The translations under genes were made by a program, and so were the position numbers. Below the pieces are notes generated by a model, which ran no database searches, was not told the origin of the DNA, and was given only the letters and a program-made list of their open reading frames with translations. Source: an uncultured Gemmatimonadota bacterium (lineage in GTDB: Bacteria > Gemmatimonadota > Gemmatimonadetes > Gemmatimonadales > Gemmatimonadaceae). Taken from it: DNA of 6,737 nt. The DNA is taken from NCBI GenBank assembly GCA_946478895.1, contig CAMLDY010000125.1, forward strand, positions 1 to 6,737. Direction: 5' to 3'. Positions 2,626 to 6,737 of the stretch are shown here, piece by piece (the stretch's first letter is position 1; the number at the start of each line of letters is the position of its first letter).

Positions 2626-3075
2626 ATGCCGCGGTTCATAGTGATGGTGAAAGCCACCAAGGAGTCGGAAGCCGGCGTGATGCCGACCGAGCAGGATTTT
2701 GCCGCGATGGGCAAGTACAACGAAGAGCTGGCAAAGGCGGGCATCATGCTCGCCGGCGAAGGCTTGCAGCCTAGCTCCAAGGGAGCGCGCGTCAGATTCA
2801 ACGGTAAGAACAGAACCGTTGTTGACGGCCCGTTCGCGGAGACCAAGGAGCTCGTCGCCGGGTTCTGGATCTGGCAGGTTAAGTCCCTCGCCGAAGCGAT
2901 CGAGTGGGTGAAGCGCTGCCCGAATCCGATGCCCACCGGCGAATCAGTGATCGAGATCCGTCAGATCTTCGAGGCCGAGGATTTCGGCGCCGAGTTCACG
3001 CCGGAGCTGCGCGAGTACGAGGAGAAGATCGGGAAAATGACGAAGAAGAACGCGGAAAAAAGCGCGAAGCGATAA
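2626..3075 (+). CDS. DGPF/YciI-domain protein, first of a tandem pair
   Basis: A 149-residue soluble protein of the YciI-like (DGPF) family, a ferredoxin-like-fold group with no established reaction. Landmarks are the first strand RFIVMVKAT (3-11), the PTEQDFAAMGKYNEEL helix (20-35), AGEGLQPSSKGARV (43-56), and the naming motif VVDGPFAETKEL, with DGPF at 67-70. The last strand region ends near residue 115. After it comes an unusual charged tail (about 122-149, lysine- and glutamate-rich, ending KKNAEKSAKR) that the sister protein lacks. The ATG at 2626 is supported by AAGGGAG 6 nt upstream. It is clearly paralogous to the next gene. DGPF genes beside ECF42 sigma genes are a well-known pairing, so a role in the sigma pathway (ligand sensing or an output) is inferred. 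Confidence 0.9.
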   Translation: MPRFIVMVKATKESEAGVMPTEQDFAAMGKYNEELAKAGIMLAGEGLQPSSKGARVRFNGKNRTVVDGPFAETKELVAGFWIWQVKSLAEAIEWVKRCPNPMPTGESVIEIRQIFEAEDFGAEFTPELREYEEKIGKMTKKNAEKSAKR

Positions 3076-3108
3076 CCGGGCGGTCAAATCAACGAGGGAG
3101 ATCCACCA

Positions 3109-3504
3109 ATGCGAATCATGACGCTATACAAGCCGGGCCGCGAAACGACCGTCCCACCGACCGAGCAGGAGATGGCGGCGATGGGCGAGCTGATCGAGGA
3201 GTTCTCGAAGGCCGGCGTGCTCGTCACCACCGATGGGTTACAGCACAGCTCCAAGGGCAAGCGGGTGAGCATCGACGCCAACGGGAAATTCACCGTCACC
3301 GACGGACCGTTCACCGAGACCAAGGAGCTGGTCTCGGGCTACGCGATCCTGCAGGTGAGGGACATGGACGAGGCTGTCCGTCTGACGAAGCGCTTTCTGC
3401 AGGTCGTCGGCGAAGGCGAGAGCGAAATCAGGTTGATGCACGATGCGCCGGCATTCGACGGGACTGGCGCGGATCAGTTCAGCGCGAGTGGCGCGAACCG
3501 GTAG
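3109..3504 (+). CDS. DGPF/YciI-domain protein, second of a tandem pair
   Basis: A 131-residue soluble protein, paralogous to the preceding gene: shared blocks include PTEQ..AAMG (17-26), KAG (34-36), GLQ.SSKG..V (43-53) and the TDGPFTETKELVSG motif with DGPF at 65-68. It starts directly at the first strand (MRIMTLYKPG) and ends soon after the last strand, so it is close to the normal family length and lacks the lysine-rich tail of its neighbour. GAGGGAG at 3094-3100, 8 nt before the ATG, supports the start. The gap to the upstream gene is 33 nt and to the sigma gene 44 nt, so the three are almost certainly one operon. The biochemical function of the family is unknown. Confidence 0.9.
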   Translation: MRIMTLYKPGRETTVPPTEQEMAAMGELIEEFSKAGVLVTTDGLQHSSKGKRVSIDANGKFTVTDGPFTETKELVSGYAILQVRDMDEAVRLTKRFLQVVGEGESEIRLMHDAPAFDGTGADQFSASGANR

Positions 3505-3548
3505 GCATCGGGCCGCGCCCCTTGCACCGGAGGAAGAAGGTGGTGTGA

Positions 3549-3571
3549 TTGGAGGCCGTGACGGCCTCCGA
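3549..3571 (+). repeat. Near-perfect palindrome/hairpin over the sigma-factor start codon
   Basis: The arms GGAGGCCGT (3551-3559) and ACGGCCTCC (3561-3569) are exact reverse complements around a single base. As RNA this gives an 8-bp stem with a UGA loop, extendable by a G-U and a U-A pair to 3549-3571. It contains both candidate start codons. The CCTCCG at 3565-3570 could alternatively pair with CGGAGG at 3528-3533, next to the ribosome binding site. Either way it may limit sigma-factor translation; it could instead be a protein operator. Confidence 0.6.
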
Positions 3572-4841
3572 TACCCACCGCGCGATCGACGCGGTCTGGC
3601 GAATTGAGTCGGCGAAATTGATCGCTGGACTGACGCGCATCGTGCGCGATGTCGGTCTCGCCGAAGATCTCGCGCAGGACGCGCTCCTCGCCGCGCTCGA
3701 GAAGTGGCCGGAGACGGGAGTACCCGACAATCCGGGCGCGTGGCTGATGGCGACGGCGAAGCACCGTGCAATCGACACCTTCCGGCGCGCGGAGCGCGTC
3801 CAGCGCAAGCACGAAGAGATTGGCCACGAGCTGGAGACCAGGCAGGAGGCGATGGTGCGGGAGCTCGAGGAAGCGATCGACGACGACATCGGCGACGATG
3901 TGCTGCGACTGATCTTCATGTCGTGCCATCCGATCCTGTCGCGCGAAGCGCGCGCCGCTCTCACTCTGCGCCTGCTCGGCGGACTCACCACGGACGAGAT
4001 CGCGCGCGCGTTTCTGGCGCCCGAGGCGACCATCGCCCAGAGAATCGTGCGCGCCAAGCGCACTCTCACCGATGCCCACGTACCCTTCGAGGTGCCGCGT
4101 GGGGCTGAGCTGGCGTCGCGGCTCGCGTCGGTGCTGGAGGTGATCTATCTGATCTTCAATGAAGGTTACGCCGCCACCGCCGGCGACGATCTCGTGCGTC
4201 CGGGGTTGTGCGAGGACGCGCTGCGGCTCGGCCGCGTTCTCGCCGAGCTGGCGCCGAGCGAGCCGGAAGTCCACGGACTGGTGGCGCTGATGGAGATCCA
4301 CGCATCGCGGTTCCGCGCGCGCACCAATGCGGCGGGAGAGCCGATCCTGCTGCTCGATCAGGATCGGGGACGGTGGGACCGGCTCTTGATTCAGCGCGGT
4401 CTCGCGGCTCTCGAGCGCGCCGAACGTCTGGGCGGCGCGAACGGACCGTACGCGCTCCAGGCAGCGATCGTCGCGTGTCACGCGCGCGCGCGCACCGCTG
4501 AGGAAACCGACTGGCGGCGGATCGCGTCGCTATACGACGCCCTCGCGGAAGTGGTTCCGTCGCCGATCGTCGAGCTCAATCGGGCGGTAGCAGTGGGAAT
4601 GGCATTCGGTCCGGCCGACGCTCTCGAGATAATCGACGCGATTGCCGACGAGCCCGCGCTCAAGGGCTATCACCTGGTTCCCGCCGCGCGCGCCGATATG
4701 CTGGAGAAGCTCGGACGCAACGACGAAGCGCGCGGCGAGTTCGAGCGCGCCGCATCGCTGACGCGGAATGCGCGCGAGCGGGAGCTGCTGCTCAAGCGCG
4801 CCAGGTCGAACGAAGACCCGCGGAAACAGGCGCGACCATGA
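3549..4841 (+). CDS. ECF42-type RNA polymerase sigma factor with long C-terminal extension
   Basis: A 430-residue group-IV sigma factor, about twice the length of a minimal ECF sigma. Region 2 spans about 17-82 (LIAGLTRIVRDVGLAEDLAQDALLAAL, then NPGAWLMATAKHRAIDTFRR). Region 4 spans about 117-173 (MSCHPILSREARAALTLRLLGGLTTDEIARAF, then the recognition helix IAQRIVRAKRTL). From about 185 comes the DUF6596/TPR-like extension with conserved NEGY (204-207), RPGLCEDALRLGRVL (217-231), LLLDQDRGRWD (267-277) and VELNRAVAVG (341-350). These features mark the ECF42 group, where the extension rather than an anti-sigma factor is reported to control activity; none is encoded nearby. A TGA at 3546-3548 limits the start to TTG 3549 (AAGAAGG 8 nt upstream) or GTG 3558. 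The latter gives a family-typical MTASDTHRAIDAVWRIES start but a poor RBS. A palindrome covers both candidates. Confidence 0.92.
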   Translation: MEAVTASDTHRAIDAVWRIESAKLIAGLTRIVRDVGLAEDLAQDALLAALEKWPETGVPDNPGAWLMATAKHRAIDTFRRAERVQRKHEEIGHELETRQEAMVRELEEAIDDDIGDDVLRLIFMSCHPILSREARAALTLRLLGGLTTDEIARAFLAPEATIAQRIVRAKRTLTDAHVPFEVPRGAELASRLASVLEVIYLIFNEGYAATAGDDLVRPGLCEDALRLGRVLAELAPSEPEVHGLVALMEIHASRFRARTNAAGEPILLLDQDRGRWDRLLIQRGLAALERAERLGGANGPYALQAAIVACHARARTAEETDWRRIASLYDALAEVVPSPIVELNRAVAVGMAFGPADALEIIDAIADEPALKGYHLVPAARADMLEKLGRNDEARGEFERAASLTRNARERELLLKRARSNEDPRKQARP

Positions 4842-4864
4842 TGCCGTCGGATTTGCGCACTTGA
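4838..4864 (+). other. Eight-codon mini-ORF bridging the sigma and MATE genes
   Basis: An ATGATG at 4838-4843 overlaps the sigma stop codon (TGA 4839-4841) and opens a frame encoding MMPSDLRT. Its TGA (4862-4864) overlaps the TTG that is the best MATE start (4861). The arrangement could couple translation of the two genes by re-initiation. The peptide itself is probably not functional, and chance is possible at this length. Confidence 0.25.
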
Positions 4865-6318
4865 CCGAAGTAACCGCGCCGGTCACAGCGACACCGGAAG
4901 CAGGAGCGTCCGCGACCAGGCCCGAACGCCGGCGCTACGATCGCTCGATCGTCGAGGGTCCGCTGCTCCCCGCCGTCTGGAAGCTGGCGTGGCCGACGAT
5001 GCTCACCAACGTCGTCGGCGGACTGCAGGCGATGGTCGATCAGGCGCTGGTCGGACACCTGATCGGCTACCAGGCCAACGCCGCGATCGGCGTCAGCTCC
5101 CAGATCTTTCTCGTCGTCGTGATTTTCATCTCGTCGTTGTTCAGCGGGATGAGCGTGCTGGTCGCGCGATTCGCCGGCGCCGGCGATCACGACATGGTCG
5201 ATCGCACCGTCTATCAGGCGTTCGTCACCGCGATCGGGATCGCGCTCCTGATCATGGCGCCGATCGGCTACATCGCGTCGCCGGCTCTGCTCGACTTCGT
5301 GAACGCCGCGCCCGCGGTGAAGGCCGAGGCGCTGCCGTTCCTCCGCATCTCCTTCGTCTTCAGCAGCGGCATGCTGGTGTTCTTCATGCTGGGCGGCGCG
5401 TTGCGCTCGGCGGGCGATGCGCGGACACCGATGATACTTGGCGTCTCGCTCACGGTGCTCAACGTCGTGTTCAACGTGATTCTGATTCGCGGCCTCGGGC
5501 CGATTCCCGCGTTCGGCACCAAGGGTGCGGCGATGGGGACGAGTCTCGCGTCGGGACTGCTCGCGGTCTATTCGCTCTGGAAGTTGTGGACGGGCGGCTG
5601 GGTTGTTTCGTTCCCGCGCGGTCGTGGGTGGGGACTCGACTGGGAGATTATCCGTGCGCTGTTCCGCTTCGGGTTGCCGACCGGCTTTCAGGGCATCGCG
5701 ATGAACATCGGCGGCGTGCTGATGCTGGCATTTATCGGATCGCTCGAGCAGAGCGCGGCGGCGCAGGCGGCGTTCGCGGTCTGCTACTCGCAGCTCTTCT
5801 CGCTGGTGACGTGGACTTCGGTCGGCTTGATGGGCGCGTCCGCGGCGATCGCCGGCCAGAACCTCGGCGCAGGCAAGGCCGATCGCGCGTCGGCGGCGGT
5901 CCACGTCGCGGCGCGGATCGGAATTGCCAGCGCGGCGATCGTGGGAGCAATGTTTCTTCTGATCCCGCGTCAGCTGCTCGAGATCTTCGGCATGAACGAT
6001 CCGGTGGTGGTCCGGATTAGTGTCCAGCTACTTCACGTGCTCAGCGTCTCCGGTCTGCTTATCGCCACCGCGCTGACCTACACCGGCGGGCTGCAGGGAA
6101 CCGGCGACACCAAGAGCCCGCTCTACATCTCGATCGTTTCGCAGATGGTCGTCCCGCTCGGCATCTGCTTCGTCATCAAGCAGGTCAGCACCCTCCATCC
6201 GATCGACATCTGGATCGCGATCCTCGTCGGGCATGCGACCCGCTGCGCTCTGAGTGTGCTGAGGTTCAATCAGGGACGCTGGCGGAATATCGCGGTCGGG
6301 GTGCACAGGTCCGCTTAG
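4861..6318 (+). CDS. MATE-family multidrug/metabolite exporter
   Basis: An inner-membrane secondary transporter, expected to exchange cationic or toxic compounds for Na+ or H+. From the TTG at 4861 it has 485 residues, normal for MATE proteins (about 440-480). A hydrophilic tail of about 30 residues precedes GPLLPAVWKLAWPTML. About twelve hydrophobic segments follow, in two homologous halves. Half 1 begins at about 40 and half 2 at about 261 (WEIIRALFRFGLPTGF). The internal duplication is visible as GGALRSAGDARTP (178-190) against GGLQGTGDTKSP (409-420), and VARFAGAGD (101-109) against AGQNLGAGKAD (about 331-341). No good ATG exists: an in-frame ATG at 4768 would overlap the sigma gene by 74 nt and add unlikely sequence. 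The TTG has only a weak GTCGGA upstream. It lies 19 nt after the sigma stop, so it is probably in the same transcript. Substrate unknown. Confidence 0.88.
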   Translation: MTEVTAPVTATPEAGASATRPERRRYDRSIVEGPLLPAVWKLAWPTMLTNVVGGLQAMVDQALVGHLIGYQANAAIGVSSQIFLVVVIFISSLFSGMSVLVARFAGAGDHDMVDRTVYQAFVTAIGIALLIMAPIGYIASPALLDFVNAAPAVKAEALPFLRISFVFSSGMLVFFMLGGALRSAGDARTPMILGVSLTVLNVVFNVILIRGLGPIPAFGTKGAAMGTSLASGLLAVYSLWKLWTGGWVVSFPRGRGWGLDWEIIRALFRFGLPTGFQGIAMNIGGVLMLAFIGSLEQSAAAQAAFAVCYSQLFSLVTWTSVGLMGASAAIAGQNLGAGKADRASAAVHVAARIGIASAAIVGAMFLLIPRQLLEIFGMNDPVVVRISVQLLHVLSVSGLLIATALTYTGGLQGTGDTKSPLYISIVSQMVVPLGICFVIKQVSTLHPIDIWIAILVGHATRCALSVLRFNQGRWRNIAVGVHRSA

Positions 6319-6352
6319 AAGGGGAACGGCAAAAGAAGACACTACCGGCGGG

Positions 6353-6366
6353 CGGCGGGGGGCGGG
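6353..6366 (+). other. 14-nt G-rich insertion unique to the left arm
   Basis: CGGCGGGGGGCGGG has no partner in the right arm: the bases on either side (6352 and 6367) pair with adjacent bases 6592 and 6591. With flanking GG and GGG runs from 6347 it could form a two- or three-layer G-quadruplex. It is either an insertion after the repeat formed or a functional bulge. Confidence 0.5.
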
Positions 6367-6442
6367 CCGGCCCGCGGCTGCGGGCTGAATCTTAAGTATC
6401 ACTGAAGACTACCAGCTAATAGCGATGGGCGGAGCAGCGGGC

Positions 6443-6479
6443 GGCTCCGAGCTTCTTTTTGGAAACAGCACTCGGAGCC
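6443..6479 (+). other. Competing internal hairpin at the apex of the inverted repeat
   Basis: GGCTCCGAG (6443-6451) is exactly complementary to CTCGGAGCC (6471-6479), giving a 9-bp stem with a 19-nt loop that holds a T5 run. The left half of this stem also pairs with the right arm of the large repeat (6505-6514), so the two folds exclude each other. Confidence 0.55.
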
Positions 6480-6619
6480 AAGCCACGCTGTTCATCCAAC
6501 ACGTGCTCGGTGCCGCCGGCTGCTCCGCTCGAAGCTCCTGGCTGGTAGTCTTCTTTAGCATTTAGGATACGAGCCCGCGGCCTCGAGCCGGCCCGCCGGT
6601 AGTCTTCTTTTGCCGTCGT

Positions 6620-6737
6620 CTAATGCCCTATCCTATTGTGCACTAAAGCAAGCGCCGTATTGTCCGGCCCTGGCTCGCACCTCGACCTCCGCAATCCCCA
6701 CAGCTGCACCGCGACCGAGATCGTTTGCTCGATCGCC
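6620..6737 (-). CDS. Possible C-terminal end of a convergent gene, cut by window
   Basis: On the reverse strand a frame enters from the right edge and runs 38 codons to a TAG at 6622-6620. Its third codon positions are strongly G/C for the first two dozen codons, as in the other genes here; the last few codons are more AT-rich. The visible peptide (beginning AIEQTISVAVQLWG and ending LVHNRIGH) matches no family I recognise. If real, it converges on the MATE gene with the inverted repeat between them. The other frames of this stretch give less convincing peptides. The alternative is that 6617-6737 is non-coding. Confidence 0.3.
   Translation of the reverse strand, partial: AIEQTISVAVQLWGLRRSRCEPGPDNTALALVHNRIGH

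Follow-up and report, generated by a model that had tools for sequence, protein, structure and literature searches.

A gene for a MATE efflux protein and the 3' end of a second, convergent reading frame are separated in the analysed window (the whole 6,737-nt stretch of DNA) by a gap of 301 nt between their stop codons (6319-6619), and within this gap lies a long hairpin (6325-6616). Upstream of these genes, positions 2626-4841 hold two YCII-domain genes and, after them, a sigma-70-like gene with DUF6596, a common regulatory layout. The two neighbours of the hairpin are:

4861..6318, plus strand: MATE efflux protein gene, upstream neighbour (PF01554 MatE, E 5.8e-44; start codon inferred)
6620..6737, minus strand: 3' end of the convergent reading frame (...ALVHNRIGH*), downstream neighbour (stop codon 6620-6622)

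The hairpin and the complementary blocks described in the original prediction are real. Positions 6326-6340 pair with 6602-6616 (15/15), 6341-6353 with 6591-6603 (13/13) and 6361-6386 with 6572-6597 (88% over 26 nt), and an inner arm pair of 64 nt (75%) joins 6389-6452 with 6505-6568. The RNA fold of 6310-6630 reaches -203.3 kcal/mol, against a mean of -131.9 for 100 dinucleotide shuffles (z -11.97), with 0/100 shuffles as good. No gene was seen within the hairpin, in agreement with the earlier claim that it lacks protein-coding content, and the sole listed ORF of at least 60 aa that overlaps it (6028-6402, minus strand) is mostly antisense to the MATE gene. A search of the window against Rfam (E up to 1) returned two weak matches, neither within the hairpin, and no rRNA match. 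The hairpin DNA matched plasmids in just two 27-nt segments of Streptomyces records (E 0.9) and had no match among phages, and the MATE protein, sought in viral contigs, was confirmed in none.

The hairpin consists of four copies of one unit of approximately 60 nt, two in each orientation, as delimited with a sequence-only model (R1) built from 35 unit copies of other genomes; the model contains no window letters, yet is not free of window bias, since these copies were retrieved by BLAST with the window. The parts of the hairpin are:

6325..6386, plus strand: unit A, left arm of the outer doublet (R1 35.2 bits, E 6.8e-11; nhmmer match 6325-6385)
6387..6397, no strand: left remainder of the outer loop, 11 nt (gap between R1 matches)
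6398..6453, plus strand: unit B, left arm of the inner doublet (R1 38.6 bits, E 6e-12)
6454..6504, no strand: loop of the inner doublet, 51 nt, no gene seen (gap between R1 matches)
6505..6563, minus strand: unit B', right arm of the inner doublet (R1 38.8 bits, E 5.1e-12)
6564..6571, no strand: right remainder of the outer loop, 8 nt (gap between R1 matches)
6572..6616, minus strand: unit A', right arm of the outer doublet, without 14 unit positions (R1 24.7 bits, E 1.3e-7)

The four GAAGACTACC motifs, two per orientation, that had been noted earlier are present in the front part of the four units, the motif of the first unit being broken by two bases (GAAGACACTACC). The unit consensus begins AACTGCAACTGAAGACTACCGGCCGGGGGC, and its copies occur as singlets or as convergent inverted doublets. 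Among the 30 distinct doublets outside the window, the loops measure 19-32 nt in sixteen, 129-196 nt in five, 378-509 nt in eight and 2 nt in one. The outer pair of the window encloses a loop of 185 nt, of which 11 + 8 = 19 nt remain once the inner doublet is subtracted. As this remainder falls inside the 19-32 nt range of the sixteen gene-less doublets, the loop lengths suggest that one doublet was inserted into the loop of another, but the inner loop of 51 nt lies outside the usual range and counts against the nested reading. In general, the two arms of one doublet are more alike than arms across doublets (0.826 vs 0.783; 0/2000 permutations, 32 doublets). Truncated unit starts of 22-34 nt lie in tandem just outside the full units of L100, L104, L112 and L124, which gives the impression that the outer end was copied a second time. 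Several runs of at least three G are apparent by reading on the G-rich strand of the unit (e.g. window 6341-6386); this strand might form a G-quadruplex, a structure that has been reported for heptamer repeats (PMC4692102).

An origin of the hairpin from a repeated unit, which the original prediction had proposed along with a BLAST comparison against relatives, was borne out by multiple dispersed copies. BLAST searches with the hairpin in eight relative genomes yielded between 7 and 36 matches each (E up to 1), the strongest of which fall in two modules. Matches to model R1 are present in at least 13 of 41 relatives of genome G001, with 2-48 copies each and at least 283 in sum, a count for which 133 candidates were scored per genome under strict filters, so that weak copies are missed. 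With the doublet as BLAST query (E 1e-4; at most eight candidates scored per genome), a match was obtained in at least 12 of 99 relatives. The unit-bearing relatives of known taxon belong to the Gemmatimonadota (L003 aside). Nearly all of these genomes are recorded as MAGs, in which contig ends may hide or create gaps.

Some of the doublets flank a gene. The common inner stretch of the long pairs in L108, L109 and L139 encodes a TIGR02436 'four helix bundle protein', which resembles PDB entries 2gsc (E 7e-9), the XCC0516 protein of Xanthomonas campestris, and 2rld. The corresponding family, PF05635 (23S_rRNA_IVP, four-helix bundle), was found in 10 of 12 unit-bearing genomes (42 matches at 41 loci), and at eight of these 41 loci (6/30 in the first set and 2/11 in the remainder) the unit of the window stands on both sides of the gene. 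These eight loci are the same as the eight doublets with loops of 378-509 nt; the gene is partial in L176 and split in two in L269. Within four arm families, dN values of 0.08-0.34 at dS values of 1.0 or more, or not computable, suggest that the IVP protein of these elements is kept by selection. Searches for the IVP protein in phages found none. The arms of the window hairpin are thus homologous to arms that flank PF05635 genes elsewhere, and since its 51-nt loop holds no gene it was filed as a gene-less derivative, rather than as a full element.

Inverted repeats around PF05635 genes extend beyond the Gemmatimonadota. Stretches of 400 nt to the left and right of the PF05635 domain were compared for inverted similarity (cut-off 35 bits) at 91 of 99 loci, the other eight having flanks under 150 nt; L216 and L218, which are two pieces of one broken gene, are both counted among the 91. 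A flanking inverted repeat above the cut-off was found at 68/91 loci in three phyla, comprising 24/26 loci of Gemmatimonadota, 36/55 of Acidobacteriota (assigned by record title or group draw) and 8/10 on cyanobacterial plasmids (10 of the 15 plasmid records with a match were covered). No such repeat was found at the remaining 23/91 loci, nineteen of which are among the 55 of the Acidobacteriota. When left and right flanks of different loci were mismatched, 1/182 exceeded 35 bits, namely the pair L180 with L167, whose arms do match, and the flanks of MATE genes, used as a control, exceeded it in 0/77 cases (maximum 28.3; 77 of 80 loci with long enough flanks). Among later Gemmatimonadota PF05635 loci with long enough flanks, nine of ten had such arms.

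The arms of the PF05635 loci belong to many sequence families and are often degenerate tandem repeats of approximately 7 nt. Mean self-identity at lags of 7, 14 and 21 nt amounts to 0.42, 0.39 and 0.38 in the cyanobacterial set, 0.35, 0.32 and 0.32 in the mainly Acidobacteriota set (which includes L193 and L198 of a Gemmatimonadetes genome, that of L020) and 0.32, 0.29 and 0.27 in the Gemmatimonadota set, with a background of 0.25-0.29 at the same three lags farther from the gene. Few single arms exceed one-half identity at a lag (3/20 cyanobacterial, 11/116 mainly Acidobacteriota and 3/54 Gemmatimonadota). Only two heptamer arrays were found in 100 kb of the Nostoc plasmid pNe_5, which therefore gives no sign of many gene-less arrays. 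STRR repeats of cyanobacteria were reportedly described by Mazel in 1990.

Arm and protein sequences are largely co-inherited. Among 87 loci with arms above 30 bits, arms are common to both members in 28/30 protein pairs of at least 70% identity, in 17/101 pairs of 60-70%, in 3/246 pairs of 50-60% and in 9/3364 pairs below 50%, the last of these counts including pieces of broken genes. Protein pairs with 60 or fewer aligned residues or no match were scored as 0 or 20% identity, and some of the eight arm-sharing pairs below 40% are therefore such pieces. Placed on a protein tree of 33 of the 41 loci, the arm labels require 11 changes, against a mean of 18.3 when shuffled (0/200 as low). Arm family U, to which the window hairpin belongs, occupies one side of a weakly supported branch (71/49), and family Y one side of a strongly supported branch; families V, W and Z are not single on this tree, partly owing to contig-end rows without an arm label.

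Comparison of corresponding sites revealed positions both with and without the element. The gene pair of the window, recognised by the protein end ...ALVHNRIGH* downstream of MATE in L006, L007 and L008 and by eye in L001, has a spacing of 9 nt in L006 and L008 and of 33 nt in L007, with the element absent. In L001, the nearest relative, the two genes are approximately 197 nt apart (counted by eye), with a different hairpin between them. This hairpin (about 8450-8570) resembles by eye arm family W, the GAAGCAGGGAGCTG arms of PF05635 loci L162, L169 and L170. Together with the dispersed copies, the absence from the same place in relatives agrees with the MITE-like nature that the original prediction had suggested. 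A second site, which adjoins the SRP RNA gene (RF00169), has both flanks on one contig in 7 of 12 genomes. It is empty in G004 and G009, and is occupied by a gene-less doublet in G001, a doublet with a longer loop in G003, a PF05635 gene between arms in G008, arms with an internally deleted gene in G006, and a gene-less hairpin of other arms, by eye like arm family V, in G005. In G002 the flanks are on two contigs with a unit near each, G011, G012 and G015 match one flank only, and in G007 the gene alone is matched. The site beside the SRP RNA gene (L273-L279) thus holds hairpins from at least two arm families, which suggests that this is a preferred place.

Filled and empty sites were also found on cyanobacterial plasmids. 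At cmr2|cmr3 one strain has arms and gene and its relative has neither (gap 428 vs 12 nt; flanks 90% identical), the 12-nt gap being that of Picosynechococcus strain PCC 7002, and the same pattern of presence and absence holds at nrdB|nrdA (gap 497 vs 40 nt; flanks 85% identical). At cas6|cas4 the relative Pseudanabaena ABRG5-3 (89%) is without arms and gene and has a 36-nt array of another 7-mer (ATTACGA-like; L259, 857-892), which fills the gap, so that this is not a clean empty site; one 7-mer array can thus stand alone where a relative has the full element. The comparison of Anabaena 90 with Dolichospermum at cas6|cas4 was not counted as an empty site, the alignment being poor. Several of these four-helix-bundle genes lie in CRISPR operons on the plasmids (L221, L222, L227), the sites being cas6|cas4 in Pseudanabaena galeata and Anabaena 90 and cmr2|cmr3 in Picosynechococcus PCC 7003. 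Neither a target-site duplication nor a constant end base was recognised by eye at the sites compared. Insertion, rather than repeated deletion, would nonetheless be the simpler reading of the pattern of presence and absence.

Several other explanations for the hairpin were considered. One is that the hairpin serves the two convergent genes locally, as a bidirectional terminator or structured RNA that selection maintains. This would accord with the very stable fold and with the position between two convergent stop codons, but is made highly improbable by the 9- or 33-nt spacing of the same gene pair in three loci and the approximately 197 nt with another hairpin in L001, by the dispersal of the units and by the lack of an Rfam match in the hairpin. 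As regards a conserved local terminator in particular, BLAST of the hairpin on 80 MATE loci gave nothing longer than 30 nt and four loci have the same gene pair without the hairpin, for which reason such a terminator is unlikely. By reading, the hairpin also lacks the form of an intrinsic terminator (a short GC-rich hairpin with a T run after it), since its arms extend over 290 nt and the stem is followed by no run of T on either strand. Repeated-unit origin and MITE-like nature are the parts of the original prediction that stood, and the conserved local terminator was not upheld, nor was a recombination or replication site, as nothing seen marks the hairpin as one; the suggestion of a structured RNA likewise found no Rfam match in the hairpin at E up to 1. 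A REPIN of a RAYT system would likewise show inverted doublets and singlets with short loops, numerous copies and a gene between copies of the repeat. This identity is nevertheless scarcely credible here, with a unit that is 60 nt long and by reading has no internal palindrome, a Y1 transposase (PF01797) in only 1/12 repeat-bearing draft genomes, and PF05635 as the gene that the repeat flanks. CTAC/GTAG is found in the unit, by reading not beside a palindrome. A RAYT was rejected as the responsible enzyme in view of the same 1/12 count, and a resident reverse transcriptase as general helper is unsupported (2/12 draft genomes).

Two further explanations concern the relation between arms and gene. 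The elements may be MITEs moved in trans by an ordinary transposase, with the IVP gene as mere cargo of some copies. Gene-less copies are far more common (16 units at eight gene loci against at least 283 units, PF05635 having been sought in 12 of the 13 genomes), and MITEs typically show such an excess, but gene-bearing loops of just 378-509 nt leave little space besides the IVP gene, a Y1 transposase occurs in 1/12 and a reverse transcriptase (PF00078) in 2/12 genomes (drafts, which may miss genes), and arms and protein are largely co-inherited, with other arm sequences at the PF05635 genes of other phyla; this explanation is consequently regarded as unlikely. It is also rather improbable that the arms are host repeats, multiplied as short tandem repeats by slippage or otherwise, pairs of which the IVP gene prefers. 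The arms are indeed often degenerate 7-mers, a class reported from genomes with no mention of an IVP gene (PMC4692102, PMC4679880), and at cas6|cas4 the strain that has no gene carries one array of a different 7-mer. Against this, the strains without the gene at cmr2|cmr3 and nrdB|nrdA also lack the arms (gaps of 12 and 40 nt), neither gene nor arms are present in G004 and G009, and the arms track protein similarity.

The elements share features with several published systems. Intervening sequences (IVSs) of 23S rRNA with an S23/IVP frame are known in Coxiella, Leptospira and others, and consist, like the elements described here, of one IVP gene in a few hundred nucleotides (428 in Coxiella, where the IVS has been called a selfish element), with tandem 7-mers upstream of the frame and decay of the frame also reported in Coxiella (PMC4990558). 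In CPR bacteria, rRNA insertions encode members of this protein family too (PMC11270868). However, IVSs are located inside rRNA and are cut out by RNase III in Coxiella (PMC4990558), whereas the present elements are found outside rRNA, their long arms fall into many sequence families, and they include gene-less copies with the same arms; the window hairpin is situated between two protein frames. With REPIN/RAYT (PMC3116915) and TIRtrons (PMC3733652) they have in common hairpins formed from inverted doublets, singlets in decay and a dedicated gene that stands between copies of the repeat, the TIRtrons also being flanked by long inverted repeats (PMC3733652). The REP is a short palindrome and the RAYT a tyrosine transposase, unlike the 60-nt unit, non-palindromic by reading, and the four-helix bundle found here. 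Heptamer repeats have been reported in Xanthomonas and Nostoc (GGGAATC / GGGGA(T/C)T; PMC4692102) and in Beggiatoaceae (TAACTGA; PMC4679880), and are similar in being 7-nt tandem repeats mostly located between genes; convergent inverted heptamer pairs number 70 and 75 in two Xanthomonas genomes, with only a few reported in Nostoc PCC 7120 (PMC4692102). The words S23 and four-helix are absent from both texts. PF05635 is also said to resemble Avd of diversity-generating retroelements, and an alignment of 4DWL with 2GSC suggests homology (PMC10053308), but a reverse transcriptase would hardly fit into the loops of the present elements, and a PF00078 match was obtained in only 2/12 genomes.

Taken together, the hairpin of the window is very likely a gene-less and probably non-autonomous relic belonging to a mobile hairpin family, the full members of which comprise two long inverted arms and one 23S_rRNA_IVP gene. 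Its membership in a family of elements that carry the IVP gene is well supported, and movement of the family is inferred from comparison of sequences. The best reading of the element is that it would be organised like a RAYT/REPIN system in which a four-helix-bundle protein replaces the transposase. When single-stranded, as DNA or RNA, the arms would fold, the IVP protein, which has no known catalytic function, would bind its own arms as RAYT does its REPs, cutting and joining would be performed by host enzymes or by a helper yet to be found, and copies without the gene would spread in trans or simply decay; binding by the IVP protein and recourse to host enzymes are proposed because a Y1 transposase is found in 1/12 and a reverse transcriptase in 2/12 genomes.

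A wider proposal, put forward tentatively and with somewhat less than even confidence, is that there exists a class of mobile elements in at least three phyla whose only product, the IVP four-helix-bundle protein, acts on its own arms, with dispersed gene-less hairpins and some of the 7-nt intergenic repeats as derivatives and the 23S IVSs as members residing in rRNA. Many bacterial genomes contain four-helix-bundle (S23/IVP) genes, which have been described as functionally uncharacterised (PMC11270868). Were the proposal true, these genes would gain a role as part of hairpin elements with their own arms and would be linked to rRNA intervening sequences, dispersed hairpins and heptamer repeats would have a testable origin, and a mobile element would be at hand with a single protein that is not among the known transposases, integrases or reverse transcriptases. 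Direct tests of the idea are possible at the plasmid sites that are filled in one cyanobacterial strain and empty in a related one. Among the papers listed from PubMed Central, outside of which most subscription papers and bioRxiv lie, no report was found that joins PF05635/S23 genes with dispersed inverted or heptamer repeats, and priority is not established. In the window, the element takes up almost all of the gap between the two convergent genes and may there end transcription that arrives from either of them. A listing for Flavobacterium columnare places a four-helix gene between those for guanylate kinase and a nicotinic acid mononucleotide adenylyltransferase (PMC5524665), an arrangement that would fit an insertion.
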